This document shows, piece after piece, positions 2,914 to 35,312 of a DNA stretch of 42,217 bases (position 1 is its first letter; each line of letters begins with the position of its first letter). The DNA is taken from positions 1 to 42,217 of the forward strand of contig JAFTWV010000083.1 in NCBI GenBank assembly GCA_017465155.1. Reading direction: 5' to 3'. The position numbers and the translations under genes were made by a program. This DNA comes from Clostridia bacterium (GTDB taxonomy: Bacteria > Bacillota > Clostridia > Christensenellales > Aristaeellaceae). The notes below the pieces were generated by a model. It did no database searches and was not told where the DNA came from. It saw only the letters and a program-made list of their open reading frames with translations.

Positions 2914-4278
2914 TCAGCCCTCCATGGCCCTTGCAAGGGCGAGGGTTTCCTTCCAGCGCCGGGAAAGGAAGAAGAGGAGCATTGCAATCATGCCTGTTGC
3001 GAAGGACGCCGGATAACACAGCATGACCCATGAGCCGTCCCACAGGAGCGAAATGGCCAGTGCCGCAGGAATGCGCACCACCCACAGCACCAGGATGTTT
3101 ACCGCAGTGGAGTACTTTAACAGGCCCATGCCGTTGACGAAGGAGATGATGCAGTTGAACACCGAATACATCCAGCAGGAGGGCAGCACCACGCGGACGT
3201 AGCGTGCAGCAAGGGCAAGCACCTCCGGATCGTCGTTGAACAGGCGCAGGAGCGGCTCGCACAGCATCGTGAAAAGCAGGCCTGCCGAGAGCGTCAGCGC
3301 GCCGGTGAAAAGCGGAATGCGCCATCCGCCGCGGACAAGACGGTCATACCGCTTTGCGCCGAGGTTCTGCCCGGAGAAGGCCGACGCCGAGGACGCAAGG
3401 GCTTGAATGGCCACGTTTGCCATGCCGTTGATCTTGCCGCCCACTGTGCAGGCTGCGGCGAACACAACACCCTGACCGTTGACCAGTGCCTGCAGGACGA
3501 AGTGTCCCACGGAGTAGATCGACTGATTCAGGCCCAGCGGCAGTCCGATGCGGATGATCTCCTTCAGGACGTCCCTGTCTGCGCCGCGGGGCAGGAGTGT
3601 GCAGCCCAGCTCCGGATAGCGGCGCTGAATGTAGCGGATGGAGCAGAACCAGGAGGCGAACATGGCAATGGACGTCGCCAGCGCCACGCCTGCCGCATCC
3701 ATGTGGAAGGCCGCTACAAACAGTACGTCCAGCACGATGTTCACGCAGCAGGAGATGATCAGGAAGCGGAGCGTTGCCCGGCTGTCACCCAGACCGCGCA
3801 GTATGCCTGCATTCACGTTGTAGCCCAGATTGCCCAGTGTGCCCAGAAACAGGATGCGAACATAGCTGACTGCCTGCTCCCATGCTTCCGGCTGTACCTG
3901 CATCAGCCTCAGCAGCAGCGGTCCGAAAAAGAAGCCCAGCACCGTTAGTGGAACGGCGCAAAGGTACAGGAACGTGATCGCCCCTCGCACAACCCGCTGC
4001 AGGTGGGCTGTATCGCCGCTGCCGGTGTACTGACTCACCAGAATGGATACGCCTGTGCCCAGTCCCATGAAAAGGCACAGGAACATTTCGATCGGCTGAC
4101 TGCCGGTGCCGACAGCCGCAAGGGAGGCAGAACCGCAGTAATTGCCCACGACCAGCGTATCCACCGTGCCGTAAAGCTGCTGAAGAATGCTGCCTGCCAC
4201 GATGGGCAGGGCAAAGAGAAGCGCCTGACGGATGATAGGCCCCTGAGTCATATCAATGCGGCGCGAGGATGCTTTCAT
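2914..4278 (-). CDS. MATE family efflux transporter
   Basis: A 454-residue integral membrane protein of normal MATE length, expected to have 12 helices in two homologous halves. The N-terminal signature is typical: IDMTQGPIIRQALLFALPIV, then QQLYGTVDTLVVGNYCG and GLGTGVSILVSQYTG. The second half begins near IRIGLPLGLNQSIYSVGH and contains AFSGQNLGAKRYDR. It should export organic cations or toxic small molecules using a Na+ or H+ gradient; the substrate cannot be predicted. The start at 4278 has GGAGG 9 bases upstream. It is a single-gene unit with promoter at 4315-4343 and terminator at 2858-2903. Confidence 0.92.
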   Translation of the reverse strand: MKASSRRIDMTQGPIIRQALLFALPIVAGSILQQLYGTVDTLVVGNYCGSASLAAVGTGSQPIEMFLCLFMGLGTGVSILVSQYTGSGDTAHLQRVVRGAITFLYLCAVPLTVLGFFFGPLLLRLMQVQPEAWEQAVSYVRILFLGTLGNLGYNVNAGILRGLGDSRATLRFLIISCCVNIVLDVLFVAAFHMDAAGVALATSIAMFASWFCSIRYIQRRYPELGCTLLPRGADRDVLKEIIRIGLPLGLNQSIYSVGHFVLQALVNGQGVVFAAACTVGGKINGMANVAIQALASSASAFSGQNLGAKRYDRLVRGGWRIPLFTGALTLSAGLLFTMLCEPLLRLFNDDPEVLALAARYVRVVLPSCWMYSVFNCIISFVNGMGLLKYSTAVNILVLWVVRIPAALAISLLWDGSWVMLCYPASFATGMIAMLLFFLSRRWKETLALARAMEG

Positions 4279-25605: not shown

Positions 25606-25990
25606 TGTGGACAAGCGGTGGATGACGTCCGCAGCTTCTGCCAAAAACCGCGTGTTTTGGGGATTGGATTTATCCACAGAAAAGTTATCCACAGGTTGTG
25701 GACGCTGTGGATGGTTTTTTCCGCTCCAGGAAGCGATTCACGCTTTTTCCTCATTTTGGGTGCTGCACGGACAAAAAATATGCAGCTTATACATTCTTCG
25801 GCGGCAGGAATCCCGCGGACGGAAAACGAATATTACCCTGACGGCGGTTTGTCCACAGGCCTGTGGATGACAAAGACCGTTTTTCAACAGTTTATCCCAA
25901 AGGCCAAATGCAGGCGGCAACCGGGTTTGAATGGGTTTTCCACAGTATCCACATGCCCTACTGCTTCTGCGAAATATATAATACTGCTAT
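25606..25990. other. Putative chromosomal origin: DnaA-box cluster before dnaN
   Basis: The 582-base gap between the leftward isomerase gene and dnaN has no gene. It holds perfect DnaA boxes TTATCCACA at 25670-25678 and 25685-25693. One-mismatch boxes lie at 25606-25614 (reverse), 25849-25857, 25862-25870 (reverse), 25936-25944 and 25945-25953; a two-mismatch copy is at 25706-25714. The pair at 25849-25870 is centred on the palindrome CCACAGGCCTGTGG. A short AT-rich stretch (25971-25990) precedes dnaN. The strand composition bias changes sign around here, which supports replication starting nearby. Confidence 0.75.
25977..25982 (+). promoter_or_regulatory. Possible -10 element of dnaN
   Basis: TATAAT at 25977-25982. 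No good -35 hexamer is seen 17 bases upstream, but a DnaA-box-like GTATCCACA (25945-25953) sits just upstream, so DnaA may influence the promoter. Confidence 0.5.
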
Positions 25991-26015: not shown

Positions 26016-27131
26016 ATGCAATTTACCGTGAATGTCCAGGAGCTTCTGGACGGATTGAATACTGTAACGCGTGCGCTGGCGGCCCGCCCTGCCAAGCAGA
26101 TTCTTGAAGGCGTGCTGATTGAAGCCGATGAATCCGGCATTACGCTGACCTGCTCCGACGGCAGCCTGACGATCGAAACGGCCATTGCTGCCGATGTACG
26201 TGAAACCGGCCGTGCCGTTCTGCCGGGCAAGCTGTTTGCAGAGCTTTCCCGCAAGCTGCCCGGCGGTGAGGTGACCATCAAGGTGGGCGACAATCACGCC
26301 GCCTCAATCCGCTGCATGTCCTCCAAATCCAATCTTGCAGGCATGAATCCTGTGGAATATCCCGAAATGGCAGGCGTGGAGCAGGGCGTGACGGTTCAGA
26401 TTCCGCAAAAGCAGCTGCGCGAGATGATTGCCCGCGTCGTGTTTGCCATTGCGACGGACGAAAGCCGTCAGATTCTGACAGGCTGCCTGCTGGAGGTTTG
26501 CAGGGATGAGGCACGCATTGTGGCGCTGGATGGCTTCCGTCTGGCAATCCAGAAGGTGTTTCAGCCGTTTGAGCTGCCCGCGGACGTCGAGACCCTCAAG
26601 GCCGTCATTCCTGGGCGTGTGCTCAATGAACTGTCGAAGATTCTTGCAGATGAGGATGAGTACTGCACGCTGCTGATCGACAAGACCCGTATGCAGGCAT
26701 CCTTCGGTCAGACGAAGCTGTCCACGGTACTGCTGGCGGGCGAGTATATTGATTACCGCCGCATCCTGCCGCCCTCCTACAAGACGCAGGCCAAGGCAGA
26801 TCGCTCCGGTGTACAGAACGCCATCGACCGTGCCAGCCTCATGGCTCGCGAGGGCAAGAACAATCTCATCCGCATGGCCTTCAGCGGCGATACGTTGTCC
26901 ATTACCTCCAATGCGGAGCTGGGCGATGTGCATGAAGAGCTGGACGTGAACCTCAGCGGCGATCCTATCGAGATTGCCTTCAACGCAAAGTATATCACTG
27001 ACGTCATCCGCAACATTACCGACGAGGAGCTGTGCATGAACTTCAACAGCAACGTCAGCCCCTGCGTTATCTGTCCGCCGGATGGAGAAAATTACCTGTA
27101 CCTGATTCTGCCGGTTCGTGTGTTCAGCTGA
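26016..27131 (+). CDS. dnaN: DNA polymerase III beta sliding clamp
   Basis: A 371-residue protein, normal clamp length (three tandem domains of about 120 residues). Recognisable parts are MQFTVNVQELLDGLNTVTRALA, CSDGSLTIETAI, DESRQILTGCLLEV, LDGFRLAIQK, the third-domain INTERNAL segment DVIRNIT and the C-terminal ending LILPVRVFS. It forms the dimeric ring that tethers polymerase III to DNA. The start at 26016 has GGAGG 10 bases upstream. The order dnaN-recF is conserved in Bacillota, but dnaA, normally just upstream, is absent, and the small S4-domain gene (rlbA/yaaA) often found between dnaN and recF is also missing. Confidence 0.96.
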   Translation: MQFTVNVQELLDGLNTVTRALAARPAKQILEGVLIEADESGITLTCSDGSLTIETAIAADVRETGRAVLPGKLFAELSRKLPGGEVTIKVGDNHAASIRCMSSKSNLAGMNPVEYPEMAGVEQGVTVQIPQKQLREMIARVVFAIATDESRQILTGCLLEVCRDEARIVALDGFRLAIQKVFQPFELPADVETLKAVIPGRVLNELSKILADEDEYCTLLIDKTRMQASFGQTKLSTVLLAGEYIDYRRILPPSYKTQAKADRSGVQNAIDRASLMAREGKNNLIRMAFSGDTLSITSNAELGDVHEELDVNLSGDPIEIAFNAKYITDVIRNITDEELCMNFNSNVSPCVICPPDGENYLYLILPVRVFS

Positions 27132-28392: not shown

Positions 28393-28408
28393 TGTTTCAC
28401 GTGAAACG
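28393..28408. promoter_or_regulatory. parS centromere site 1
   Basis: TGTTTCACGTGAAACG, 15 of 16 bases symmetric around CACGTG; it closely matches the ParB (Spo0J) site TGTTCCACGTGAAACA of Bacillus. It lies 3 bases past the recF stop. Confidence 0.88.
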
Positions 28409-28640: not shown

Positions 28641-28656
28641 TGTTTCACGTGAAACA
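28641..28656. promoter_or_regulatory. parS centromere site 2
   Basis: TGTTTCACGTGAAACA, a perfect 16-base palindrome differing from the Bacillus consensus at one position. It lies 25 bases upstream of a TACAAT (28681-28686) that probably serves as the addA -10 element. Confidence 0.92.
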
Positions 28657-28708: not shown

Positions 28709-31700
28709 GTGCCTAACTGGACGCCACAGCAGCAGCAGGCGATCAATGCAAGAAACAATACGATCCTCGTCAGCGCAGCTGCCGGTTCAGGAAAGACGGC
28801 GGTCCTGGTGGAACGAATCGTTCAGCTGATTCGTGAAGGCTGGCGTATGGATCGTATGCTCATCGTGACGTTTACGAAGGCTGCTGCAGCGGAAATGCGC
28901 CAGCGACTCAACAAGCGCCTCGTGAAAGAAGCAGCTGCTGATCCTGAGCTGATGGGGCGCGCGCTTGATGATCTGGAATCAACGGAAATTTCTACGATTC
29001 ATGCTTTCTGCCAGAAGGTGCTGCGCAACAATTTTCAAGCTGTGGGAATTGACCCGATGGTTCGTGCCTGTGATGAACAGACAAAAGCAGTGCTGTTTGA
29101 TGAGGCATGGATGGAAGCTTTGAACCAGCTGCTGGATGAAAACGATGATCCTGCTTTTATGGAGCTTGCACAGGCTTGGGATGAAAAGACACTGCATGAA
29201 ATGACTGCGCAGCTTTATGATTTTTTGATGTCGCTGCCAGCTCCATTTGACTGGCTGGACAGGGCGATCAGTCTTGTGCAGCTGAAGCCGTATCAGGTAC
29301 ATCCGTGGTATAAGGTGCTGCAAAAGCACGCAAAGCTGGAGATCGAAGGCATCGGCGATATACTGCAGGCCATGAAAAATATGCTGGATGAACCCGACGC
29401 GGTGGAGCTGCGACGTGAAACATGGACGTCAGATATGCAGGAATATCAACAGCTGATGCAGACAGACTGGGCGCATTCGTTGCGGCTGCTGGAGGCATTG
29501 GAGCGGTTCTCGCTGACAAAGGCTAAGGCTGCACGTAATACAACGGATGCCCAGAAGGAATGGTTGGCAAGGTTCAAGAAGCAGCGCGATAGAATCAGCG
29601 ATATCGTGAAGCATACCCGCGACCGCCTGACCATCGACGATACAAGGTTGGATAAGGAATTCGGGATGATGCAGCTTCATTTGAGGGGGCTTGCTTCGCT
29701 GACAAAGCGGACGCATCAGCTTTTCCTCAGCAAGAAGGAGCAGCAGCATGTGATTGACTTCAGTGATATGGAGCAATTCACAATGGATATTCTCTCGAAT
29801 CCGTCGTATCGCAAGCAGTTGCAGGAGGAATATGATCACATTTTCGTGGATGAATGCCAGGATGTATCTCAGATTCAGGACGCGATTCTTCAGGCAATTC
29901 ATAATGAAGATAATCACATGTTCATGGTCGGTGACGTAAAGCAGAGCATTTATCGATTCAGAAAAGCAGATCCGACACTGTTCCTGCACAGGATGCGTAC
30001 ATTCTCTGACGATGAGGATGCTCGTACAAGGCGAATCTTTCTGCAGAAAAACTTCCGCAGCCGTGATCATGTGCTTGAAGCAACGAATCAGGTGTTCCGC
30101 GTGGCGATGCGCCCAAACGTAACTGAGCTGACCTATGAGCCCGAGGATGAGCTGATCTGTGGCAGAGAAACGCAGAATGATCCGGAGGTGGAGATGCATC
30201 TGCTGGATGTATCAGCAGGGGAGGATGGAGAACAGGTAGAAGCCCTCGAAGCAGAAGCCAAGGTGGTCATTGAACGTATTCAGGAGCTTCTGCAGGAGCA
30301 GTTTGACGACGGCGGCGTTGTACGGAATTACACCTACCGTGACATGGTGATTCTTCTTTCTGCGGCGTCAAATACTGCGCCCAAAATTGTTGAGATGCTG
30401 AACAGTCAGGGGATTCCCGTGTTCTATGACGGGGCGGCGGCATACTTTTCACTGCCTGAGATTCAGGCGGTGAAGTCGCTGCTGTGCGTCATTGATAACC
30501 CGATGCAGGATATACCGCTTCTTGCTGCATTAAAAATGATTCCTTTTTCCTTGTCAGACGCGCAGCTGGCTGCAATCAGAAGCTGTAAAACAGGGCGGGG
30601 TGTGCCATTCTATGAGGCGTTCGACGCATGCTGTGAGAAAGATGATGCGCTTGCTGAACGCTGCAGAGAGATACGCGATCAGCTGTCAGTATGGCGGTTC
30701 AAGGCGGAAGTGATGTGCCTGTCGGATTTCATTTGGCATGTTGTGCGGGATTCGGGTTACTATGCAGCGTGTGGTGCGCTGCCAAAGGGTGAGCTTCGTC
30801 AGGCAAATTTGAGGATGCTTTATCAGCGTGCGCTGAATTTTGAGCAGGATGGCGGTACGACGCTGGCGCAGTTCCTGCAGCTGACAGATCAGCAGGCAAG
30901 CGGAGACGATCGCATGTCTGCCAAGATGCTGGGCGAGGGTGAAAACCTGGTTCGAATCATGACGATGCACAAGTCAAAGGGCCTTGAGTTTCCTGTGGTA
31001 TTCTGCATGCAGATGAGCGGCAGACTGCACAAGGGCTATAAGGGCGAGCTGCTGATGCACACAAATCTTGGCGTGGCAATGCCGTATGTCAACCGAGCGC
31101 TGCGTGTGAAGCGGAAAACCATGGCAGATGATGCATTCAAGGTGCAGCGGGAGCTGGATGAAAAGGCAGAGCGAGCACGATTGCTCTATGTGGCAATGAC
31201 GCGTGCAAGAGAGCGGCTCATCATGATCGGCTGCTGCAAGGGAAATGAGCGCGATGTATGGCAGCTGCCAGAAAGCGATTATCGGGTATGGACGGCATCC
31301 AGCATGACAGATTGGATCATGCAGGGGGTGTTGTCAAATGATATCAACAATTTATCCACAGGCTATCCACATGACGGAAAACCATGGAATATCCGGTGTT
31401 GGAGCGATTGTGAGGGGCTGTCTGTGGATAACGCTGTGGATAAAGAGGGCATTGATTCGTGGCTGCGGAGTGTCCTGTCTCAGCCGGCGGAAGAGGTATT
31501 CCCCGAATGGGAACAGGTCAAGGATGCTGAAGCAATTGTTCCTTTGAAGACATCCGTCAGTGCGGTTGCAAAGAAGGCGGTCACCCATGATCCGTTGCCG
31601 CTGGATGGAAGCGATGAGGATGTGGAGGACAAACGTGCAGCAGAGGAAATTGTTACGCCGCTGAGAATGTCGGAGCTTCCTGCCCGACCTGCATTCCTGG

Positions 31701-34367: not shown

Positions 34368-34583
34368 ATGATCAATAAGAATATGACGGTTGGCGAGGTT
34401 CTGCGTTCCTGTGCGGATGACGCGCTGGAGGCTGTGGTGAAGGTGTTCAATGCGATGGGTATGCACTGCCTGTTCTGCCCCCACTCCACTGCTGAAACCC
34501 TCGAGCAGGCCGCGATGGTGCACGGCAATGATGTGGACGTGCTTGTGGATAACCTGAACGCTGTGTATAAGGCAAAGGCTTAA
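34368..34583 (+). CDS. DUF1858 redox-disulfide domain protein
   Basis: A 71-residue protein that is a single DUF1858 ('hybrid-cluster-associated redox disulfide', TIGR03980-like) domain: NMTVGEVLRSC, then GMHCLFCPHSTAETLEQAAMVHG with a CxxC pair (Cys34, Cys37). These small proteins often occur near hybrid-cluster proteins or other anaerobic redox enzymes; a thiol-redox or metal role is presumed. The start at 34368 has GAGGTG about 6 bases upstream. Two DnaA-box-like sequences overlap its last codons. Confidence 0.85.
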   Translation: MINKNMTVGEVLRSCADDALEAVVKVFNAMGMHCLFCPHSTAETLEQAAMVHGNDVDVLVDNLNAVYKAKA

Positions 34584-34802
34584 TCCACAATGAACAGCCT
34601 TCTTCTGGCTTGAATGCAGGAGAAGGCTGTTTTTGTTAAAAACGCGCAAAGTCTTGCAATAGCCGGGGTTGAAGGCTGTATGGCAGGTTCAAAGCAATCA
34701 ACATGCTTTGTGGATAACCTTGTGGATATTGTTGATAACCTGCGTCAAAATAATCCCCAGACTGTGGATAATGTGGATAACTCTGTGGATAAGTGTGGAT
34801 AA
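34544..34802 (-). promoter_or_regulatory. Dense DnaA-box array 8.5 kb from dnaN
   Basis: Six perfect TGTGGATAA boxes, all in the same direction, at 34544, 34709, 34763, 34772, 34784 and 34794 (first base). Near matches lie at 34562 (TGTGTATAA), 34721 (TGTGGATAT) and 34730 (TGTTGATAA). The last four perfect boxes are 9, 12 and 10 bases apart, about one helical turn each. The array begins in the end of the DUF1858 gene and fills the gap before the ferritin-like gene. Confidence 0.8.
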
Positions 34803-34844
34803 CCCGGTGGATACTGTGGAATATGCTGTGGAAGAGGTGTGCAT

Positions 34845-35312
34845 ATGGTTGTACGGAACGAAAGTCAGGCGCTGTGTGTGGCTGTGGAAATGGAGCGTCG
34901 GGCGATCAGAGTGTATGAGCGTGCGCTGATGCTGGCGGACGATCCCCGCGTGCAGGAGGGAATCCGTGATATTCTGATGGACGAGAAAGCGCATCTGCAG
35001 CGGTTCAGCGAGATGAAATCCAGCCATCAGATGGATGCTGCGGAGGAACAGATGCTGATTGCCTCGATGGCTGCGGAGGTTCTGTTTACCGGCGGCGTGA
35101 TGGAAATGAAGCGCGAGAAGGCCCTGACGACGCTCCTTGGCTTGTACCGCTACGCTGCAGAGAGCGAGGCAGGCGCCGTGCGAACCTATACGGAATTCGC
35201 AGAAAAATGCGGTGATCCTGATGTGAGGGAGACCTTCCTCTCCATCGTGCGGGAGGAAAGCGCGCACCTGTCTGCACTGCGGGCAAGAGTTGCCCTCATG
35301 GAGGCACAGTAA
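34845..35312 (+). CDS. Ferritin-like/rubrerythrin-type diiron protein
   Basis: A 155-residue four-helix protein. Iron-ligand motifs are visible: VEMERRAIRVYERAL in helix 1, ILMDEKAHLQRF (ExxH) in helix 2, AAESEAGAVRTY in helix 3 and IVREESAHLSALR (ExxH) in helix 4. There is no C-terminal rubredoxin domain, so it is a short rubrerythrin or ferritin-like protein, probably acting in peroxide or oxygen defence of an anaerobe. The ATG at 34845 follows AGAGGTG by 5 bases. The DnaA-box array covers the region where its promoter should lie; I could not identify one. A hairpin follows the gene. Confidence 0.83.
   Translation: MVVRNESQALCVAVEMERRAIRVYERALMLADDPRVQEGIRDILMDEKAHLQRFSEMKSSHQMDAAEEQMLIASMAAEVLFTGGVMEMKREKALTTLLGLYRYAAESEAGAVRTYTEFAEKCGDPDVRETFLSIVREESAHLSALRARVALMEAQ

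Follow-up and report, generated by a model that had tools for sequence, protein, structure and literature searches.

An array of DnaA boxes outside oriC, upstream of a gene for a ferritin-like protein and 8.5 kb from dnaN (dnaN start, 26016; array start, 34544), holds more boxes than chance would provide, and comparison with related genomes indicates that it is tied to the ferritin-like gene and stays with that gene when it moves. Our best reading, held with moderate confidence, is that the array is an extra-origin cluster of the Bacillus subtilis DBC type, which would serve mainly in DnaA-responsive control of the ferritin-like gene; titration of DnaA near oriC is a likely second effect. Extra-origin clusters of DnaA boxes are known from a small number of model bacteria, and titration versus gene regulation is debated for them. 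DnaA binds closely packed boxes cooperatively and is a transcription factor at some clusters. The cluster described here can be traced through gene movement and loss, its fixed geometry recurs at unrelated genes, and such a stereotyped natural module offers a concrete geometry to test for ATP-DnaA preference.

The array and its surroundings

The DNA comes from a MAG of an uncultured gut bacterium (draft genome of 2.80 Mb in 136 contigs, 68.5% complete), the named relatives of which are also gut MAGs (Clostridia, Clostridiales, or Christensenellaceae bacterium). The window, by which we mean the whole analyzed stretch of 42,217 nucleotides (contig C58), encodes, in this order, dnaN, recF, addA, a PHP phosphatase, a metallo-beta-lactamase-fold (MBL) protein, a DUF1858 protein, and the ferritin-like protein; Rfam gave 0 matches across it. 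The dnaA gene does not adjoin dnaN in the draft genome and is found on another contig (C94, 8765-10063), with one perfect DnaA box about 150 bp upstream. The features considered below are:

25606..25953, both strands: dnaN-side box cluster, with two perfect boxes (25670 and 25685, both minus) and five one-mismatch boxes
26016..27131, plus: dnaN
31352..31443, both strands: second cluster, inside the addA coding sequence, with perfect boxes at 31352 (minus), 31423 (plus), and 31435 (plus) and a near match at 31363 (minus)
34368..34583, plus: gene for a DUF1858 / hybrid-cluster-protein-associated redox disulfide domain protein
34544..34589, both strands: outlying boxes at 34544 (plus), 34562 (plus, one mismatch), and 34581 (minus, one mismatch)
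34588..34637, plus: strong hairpin followed by TTTTTG, after the DUF1858 gene (-26.5 kcal/mol, z -5.8)
34709..34738, plus: core module A, three DnaA boxes at 34709 (perfect), 34721 (TGTGGATAT), and 34730 (TGTTGATAA)
34763..34802, plus: core block B, four perfect DnaA boxes at 34763, 34772, 34784, and 34794
34806..34823, plus: two weak boxes, GGTGGATAC and TGTGGAATA, with two mismatches each
34845..35312, plus: ferritin-like (rubrerythrin/Ferritin_2-type diiron) gene, with the start ATG picked by conservation

Between positions 34544 and 34802 there are six perfect TGTGGATAA boxes, all on the plus strand (34544, 34709, 34763, 34772, 34784, and 34794), and four boxes with one mismatch (34562, 34721, and 34730 on the plus strand and 34581 on the minus strand). 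The recount thus agrees with the sequence-only reading on the perfect boxes and on the 9, 12, and 10 spacing of the last four, and corrects the near matches from three to four, one of them pointing the other way. The array is also, as had been claimed, denser than the dnaN-side cluster (9 versus at most 5 boxes per 300 bases) and opposite in direction to the perfect boxes there. In 500 dinucleotide shuffles of the window, no 260 bases held more than 1 perfect box or more than 3 boxes with up to one mismatch, against the observed 6 and 10. The whole assembly contains 54 perfect boxes, 13 of which fall inside the 42 kb window, that is, within 1.5% of the assembly, and three perfect boxes separated by gaps of 0-30 are found in this genome only in the array (two overlapping matches).

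The functional core of the array is the interval 34709-34802, with seven boxes all facing the ferritin-like gene. Its module A has gaps of 3 bp and then 0, and the same 12,9 spacing is found in relatives; the start spacings of block B (9, 12, and 10) are retained in the closest relatives, and the two weak boxes extend the 12,9 spacing onward from 34794. The three outlying boxes are probably not part of the element: the first two (34544 and 34562) fall within the DUF1858 coding region, the third (34581) overlaps its stop, the hairpin stands between all three and the core, and their register is not kept across relatives. The hairpin is a likely terminator, and it is absent from the list produced by the consensus terminator scan. 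If it terminates DUF1858, the ferritin-like gene would therefore need its own promoter within 34640-34844, the interval filled by the boxes, which occupy the space bounded by the hairpin and the start codon; no sigma-70-like promoter was recognized in 34640-34844.

It is improbable that some protein other than DnaA reads the TGTGGATAA-like word. The common word in several other genera is TGTGGAAAA, which would suit such a reader. However, the perfect boxes equal the DnaA consensus in the available excerpts of PMC12371093, PMC4447404, and PMC11317965, the same word clusters beside dnaN, the DnaA of this genome carries the standard C-terminal domain (Bac_DnaA_C), and the 2-3 bp gap within the box pair matches the preference of Escherichia coli DnaA (PMC11317965, excerpt).

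Conservation, relocation, and loss among relatives

A ferritin-like match was obtained in 111 genomes of the family, and 90 loci were scanned, of which 87 had a usable gene (L151, L154, and L157 were not usable, and L133 lacked upstream DNA). The protein has 155 residues, with E and H residues invariant in the ortholog alignment, and the profiles of TM1526 and of further ferritin-like chains match it weakly; it is, on this evidence, a conserved diiron-type protein. The sequence-only reading had named a lack of the array in close relatives as a refutation, and this check did not refute it: at least five boxes with up to one mismatch lie within 400 bp upstream of the gene in all 14 same-genus genomes that have it, our own included, with 2 to 6 perfect boxes per genome. 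Three further members of the genus (G184, G223, and G241) have neither the ferritin-like gene nor dnaN in their assemblies and, being uninformative, stand outside these counts.

In seven close orthologs, pairwise identity is 95.2% in box columns versus 57.7% elsewhere, and in 200 circular displacements of the mask the observed identity was never equaled; by this measure, the boxes are under selection as DNA. Start spacings in these orthologs are 12, 9, 33-34, 9, 12, and 10, with two of them short of one box, and remoter members of the genus keep the 11-12 and 9 bp spacing, in G229, G111, and G024 only when more mismatches are allowed. Near-tandem boxes do resemble a short repeat, as a chance assembly or a recent, functionless local repeat expansion would predict, but the boxes are conserved while the spacers diverge, in orthologs whose ferritin-like proteins differ at 24-47% of positions, and the 500 shuffles argue in the same direction; this explanation is refuted by the conservation, and we give it almost no weight.

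Beyond the genus, the association becomes sparse. Among 73 loci, at least two boxes are present within 400 bp upstream in 15, at least three in 10, and none in 53. Strong clusters in other genera are those of G039 (5 perfect boxes) and G049 (3 perfect), and several genomes of g14 and g15 have two to four boxes, mostly of the form TGTGGAAAA. At the box-less loci, DUF1858 is mostly close upstream or has no match, but in L131 and L146 boxes are missing even though the DUF1858 gene is followed by a gap of roughly 100 bp or more.

Gene order shows what the array follows. The order seen in the window, from dnaN to the ferritin-like gene, is found on one contig in 8 of the 14 same-genus genomes and is interrupted by contig breaks in G229, G203, and G162. 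In G131, G064, and G194, the ferritin-like gene and the array lie together on the opposite side of dnaN, with the array again immediately upstream of the gene, and no boxes are left at the old place between MBL and the next gene. The direction of the array relative to dnaN in G131 is unlike that in G064 and G194 and is always the same as that of the gene. In G089, where the dnaN side is readable, both the ferritin-like gene and the array are missing, whereas the addA boxes are kept. The distance to DUF1858 ranges between about 200 bp and about 1.9 kb, but the boxes remain no farther than about 250 bp from the start of the ferritin-like gene. These observations carry the conclusion that the array stays with the gene, which draws on three close relatives, with weaker support from other genera; the three genomes with the rearrangement are closely related and could reflect a single event, G089 is one loss, and relocation of the whole block would take a neighboring array along regardless of what the array does.

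Proximity to the origin is conserved as well. The distance from dnaN to the ferritin-like start, on either side of dnaN, is 8.2-12.2 kb in each of the 11 same-genus genomes in which a single contig holds the two genes, and selection may hold the gene or the array there. This favors the view that the array is primarily a DnaA sink, which by titration or inactivation of DnaA restrains initiation at oriC, with the ferritin-like gene a bystander. The concentration of 13 of the 54 perfect boxes within the window points the same way, as do the early initiation that follows removal of six clusters in B. subtilis (PMC5295017) and the concentration of E. coli boxes near oriC (PMC12371093), both as given in excerpts of those papers. 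Against this, the array is anchored to the start and strand of the gene, it does not persist in G089, which lacks the gene, or at the vacated site of the three rearranged genomes, and boxes also accompany a ferritin-like gene far from dnaN, namely in G106, where four boxes precede a gene that shares a contig with dnaN at a distance of about 76 kb; another excerpt of PMC5295017 rates the B. subtilis clusters as being of minor importance. We regard a primary sink as possible but rather unlikely.

The sequence-only reading had also proposed that the array might be the second half of a split origin, an idea that finds no support here and that we reject as very improbable. The dense boxes do share an arm with dnaN, and Firmicutes origins can be bipartite (PMC7561715, excerpt). 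However, the GC skew flips sign next to dnaN (cumulative minimum, 25504); the array interval, with 55% AT versus 54% in the dnaN-side region, has no AT-rich element that goes beyond the dnaN side; a stretch of 8.5 kb with four genes intervenes; and the array has the opposite position relative to dnaN in three relatives and is missing in G089. The dnaN-side cluster itself is the probable oriC. Two parS-like palindromes (TGTTTCACGTGAAAC) are present at 28393-28408 and 28641-28656, between recF and addA and at the start of addA; the motif is one that we take to be parS, and the palindromes would fit an origin nearby.

Other clusters and a recurrent three-box module

DnaA boxes also cluster in this genus at places other than promoters. 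At least one perfect box is present in 20 of 22 addA sequences (two of them partial), with none in G162 and G229, and 12 of the 22 sequences surpass all 300 of their synonymous shuffles in the number of perfect boxes. The addA boxes of relatives are read in various codon frames (TTA TCC ACA; GGT TAT CCA CAG; GTT ATC CAC AAC; T GTG GAT AA) and shift position while the peptide varies. In our genome, contig C135 (L053) holds ten boxes, 4 of them perfect, at 3971-4236, between DUF1292 and a convergent gene for a low-molecular-weight phosphatase, with an 11,9,33 spacing that is the same as that of the ferritin-like array. Across the genus, a cluster is located downstream of DUF1292 at 9 of 17 loci and is absent at 8, three of which are weak paralog-like hits. 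The complete g26 genomes (G163, G185, and G132) carry a cluster about 6 kb from dnaN, in the interval where addA and the MBL gene converge. Because none of the addA, DUF1292, and g26 clusters is in a promoter position, they suggest a titrating or structural role for some clusters, and those at addA and DUF1292 favor a primary sink also for the ferritin-like array.

A palindrome, AAACCCTT-N7-AAGGGTTT, occurs near box clusters in the genus (L071 7685, L059 5511, L053 4742, and others). Sixteen of its 17 hits fall in box-rich zones, which make up 6.7% of 722 kb of loci, most of these hits being addA orthologs. An exact family-wide search gave 30 loci, with a box (one mismatch) within 250 bp in just 2, and the palindrome was rejected as an element that accompanies DnaA boxes in general.

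One pattern is common to the ferritin-like array and the DUF1292 cluster: box, 2-3 bp, box, 0 bp, box, followed after 33-35 bp by the next box. The counts of these spacings include many orthologs and are not independent. A strict form of this three-box pattern was found at 29 places in 25 of 300 family genomes and at 7 places in 7 of 391 class genomes, with 0 matches to a reversed-pattern control in either set. Our own genome lies outside the strict matches, since its third box reads TGTTGATAA in the ferritin-like array and TGTGGATTA in the C135 cluster, so that its modules count only when mismatches are allowed. Ten of the 29 family places are at the ferritin-like gene, corresponding to 10 of the 14 same-genus genomes, 3 are after DUF1292, and 11 precede a gene for a CwlD-like amidase, the profile matches of which fall below the curated cut-off of that family; the remaining 5 (in G167, G006, G157, G141, and G103) have no gene assignment. 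The module stands about 150-300 bp before the CwlD-like gene in g30, g16, g8, and G235 (L234-L242, L081, and L097). Among the 7 class places, 4 follow tsaD (gcp), 2 precede an S30AE/HPF-type gene, and 1 (G455) is without assignment, with a weak TsaD-like stretch nearby. The tsaD places (L260, L263, L264, and L265) belong to other families of the class, and at 3 of the 4 the next long open frame is reversed, which puts the module between two gene ends. No three-box module was present at the dnaN-side clusters of the loci read.

We tentatively suggest that a portable three-box module marks replication-responsive loci across the class (ferritin-like, S30AE/HPF-like, and CwlD-like genes, that is, stress, dormancy, and wall), through which DnaA might couple the state of replication to iron/oxidative and stationary-phase physiology, and that its geometry may select ATP-DnaA.

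Gene control, titration, and comparison with known systems

Control of the ferritin-like gene is the role best supported by position, because the boxes stay near the start codon through rearrangement and across genera. The sequence-only reading had suggested a replication-timing switch for this gene; the control part of that proposal finds support to this extent, while timing as such cannot be read from sequence. Gene control has evidence against it too: the promoter scan recognized no sigma-70-like sequence between the hairpin and the start codon, 53 of the 73 loci beyond the genus have no boxes within 400 bp, and the module after DUF1292 and tsaD and the boxes inside addA indicate that DnaA clusters here need not regulate genes.

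From the sequence data we infer DnaA binding, oligomerization, regulation and its sign, and titration. DnaA would bind cooperatively to the closely packed, same-facing boxes, which comprise the pair 2-3 bp apart, the abutting third box, and, about three helical turns onward, the second packed block. Oligomerization over 34709-34802 would then occlude the promoter interval of the ferritin-like gene, the expression of which would follow the level of the initiator or the state of replication, rising when DnaA is displaced or scarce, for example after passage of the fork. Repression by occupancy is likelier than activation, because in most relatives the boxes extend to 50 bp or less from the start codon. 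With its position 8-12 kb from dnaN and its early duplication, the cluster would in addition divert DnaA from oriC. A link of iron or oxidative protection to replication would make sense, although this is speculation.

The closest parallels are found in B. subtilis, in which, according to excerpts of PMC4447404 and PMC5295017, the DBCs outside oriC (gcp/ydiF, ywlC, ywcI, yqeG-sda, trmE, and yydA) have 4-12 boxes and lie in promoters or between convergent genes. A top DnaA-binding region is located downstream of both gcp and ydiF, and DnaA regulates DBC neighbors, activating sda and repressing ywlC, trmE, and others (PMC4447404). The array described here is likewise a dense box cluster outside oriC, and the module likewise follows tsaD/gcp, at 4 of the 7 class places, whereas the neighbor here is a ferritin-like gene; the fixed 12,9 module is a feature of the present array. 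The authors of PMC4447404 state, in the available excerpt, that too few regions are known to define the features of sequence, orientation, or spacing that favor ATP-DnaA.

The DnaA of E. coli has a preference for box pairs separated by 2 or 3 bp, and the double boxes at regulated promoters are same-facing with this separation, like the first gap of the module (PMC11317965, excerpt). The present array differs in having more boxes and an abutting third one, and in its phylum and target gene. A titrating locus comparable to datA, the third option of the sequence-only reading, is plausible, on sequence grounds, as regards titration, given the constant 8.2-12.2 kb in 11 of 11 genomes and the non-promoter clusters at addA, DUF1292, and tsaD. 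The array resembles datA in having several boxes, here of presumably high affinity, away from oriC, but datA needs IHF and promotes DnaA-ATP hydrolysis (PMC5295017, excerpt), and the array contains no IHF-like site. The exact pattern WATCAANNNNTTR, which we take to describe the IHF site, has one match in the window (31342) and none in the array, and a datA of the IHF type was rejected.

The extra-origin DnaA-box cluster as a kind is already known. The apparently new elements are a fixed geometry of three boxes that repeats at unrelated genes, a ferritin-like target, and selection at the DNA level on boxes within addA. Among the openly licensed papers searched, none joined Christensenellaceae with DnaA or DnaA box with cwlD, and the terms 'DnaA box triplet' and 'DnaA-box module' did not occur, which is weak evidence of novelty. 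One of these papers, on Streptomyces dps, contains DnaA box and rubrerythrin, once each.
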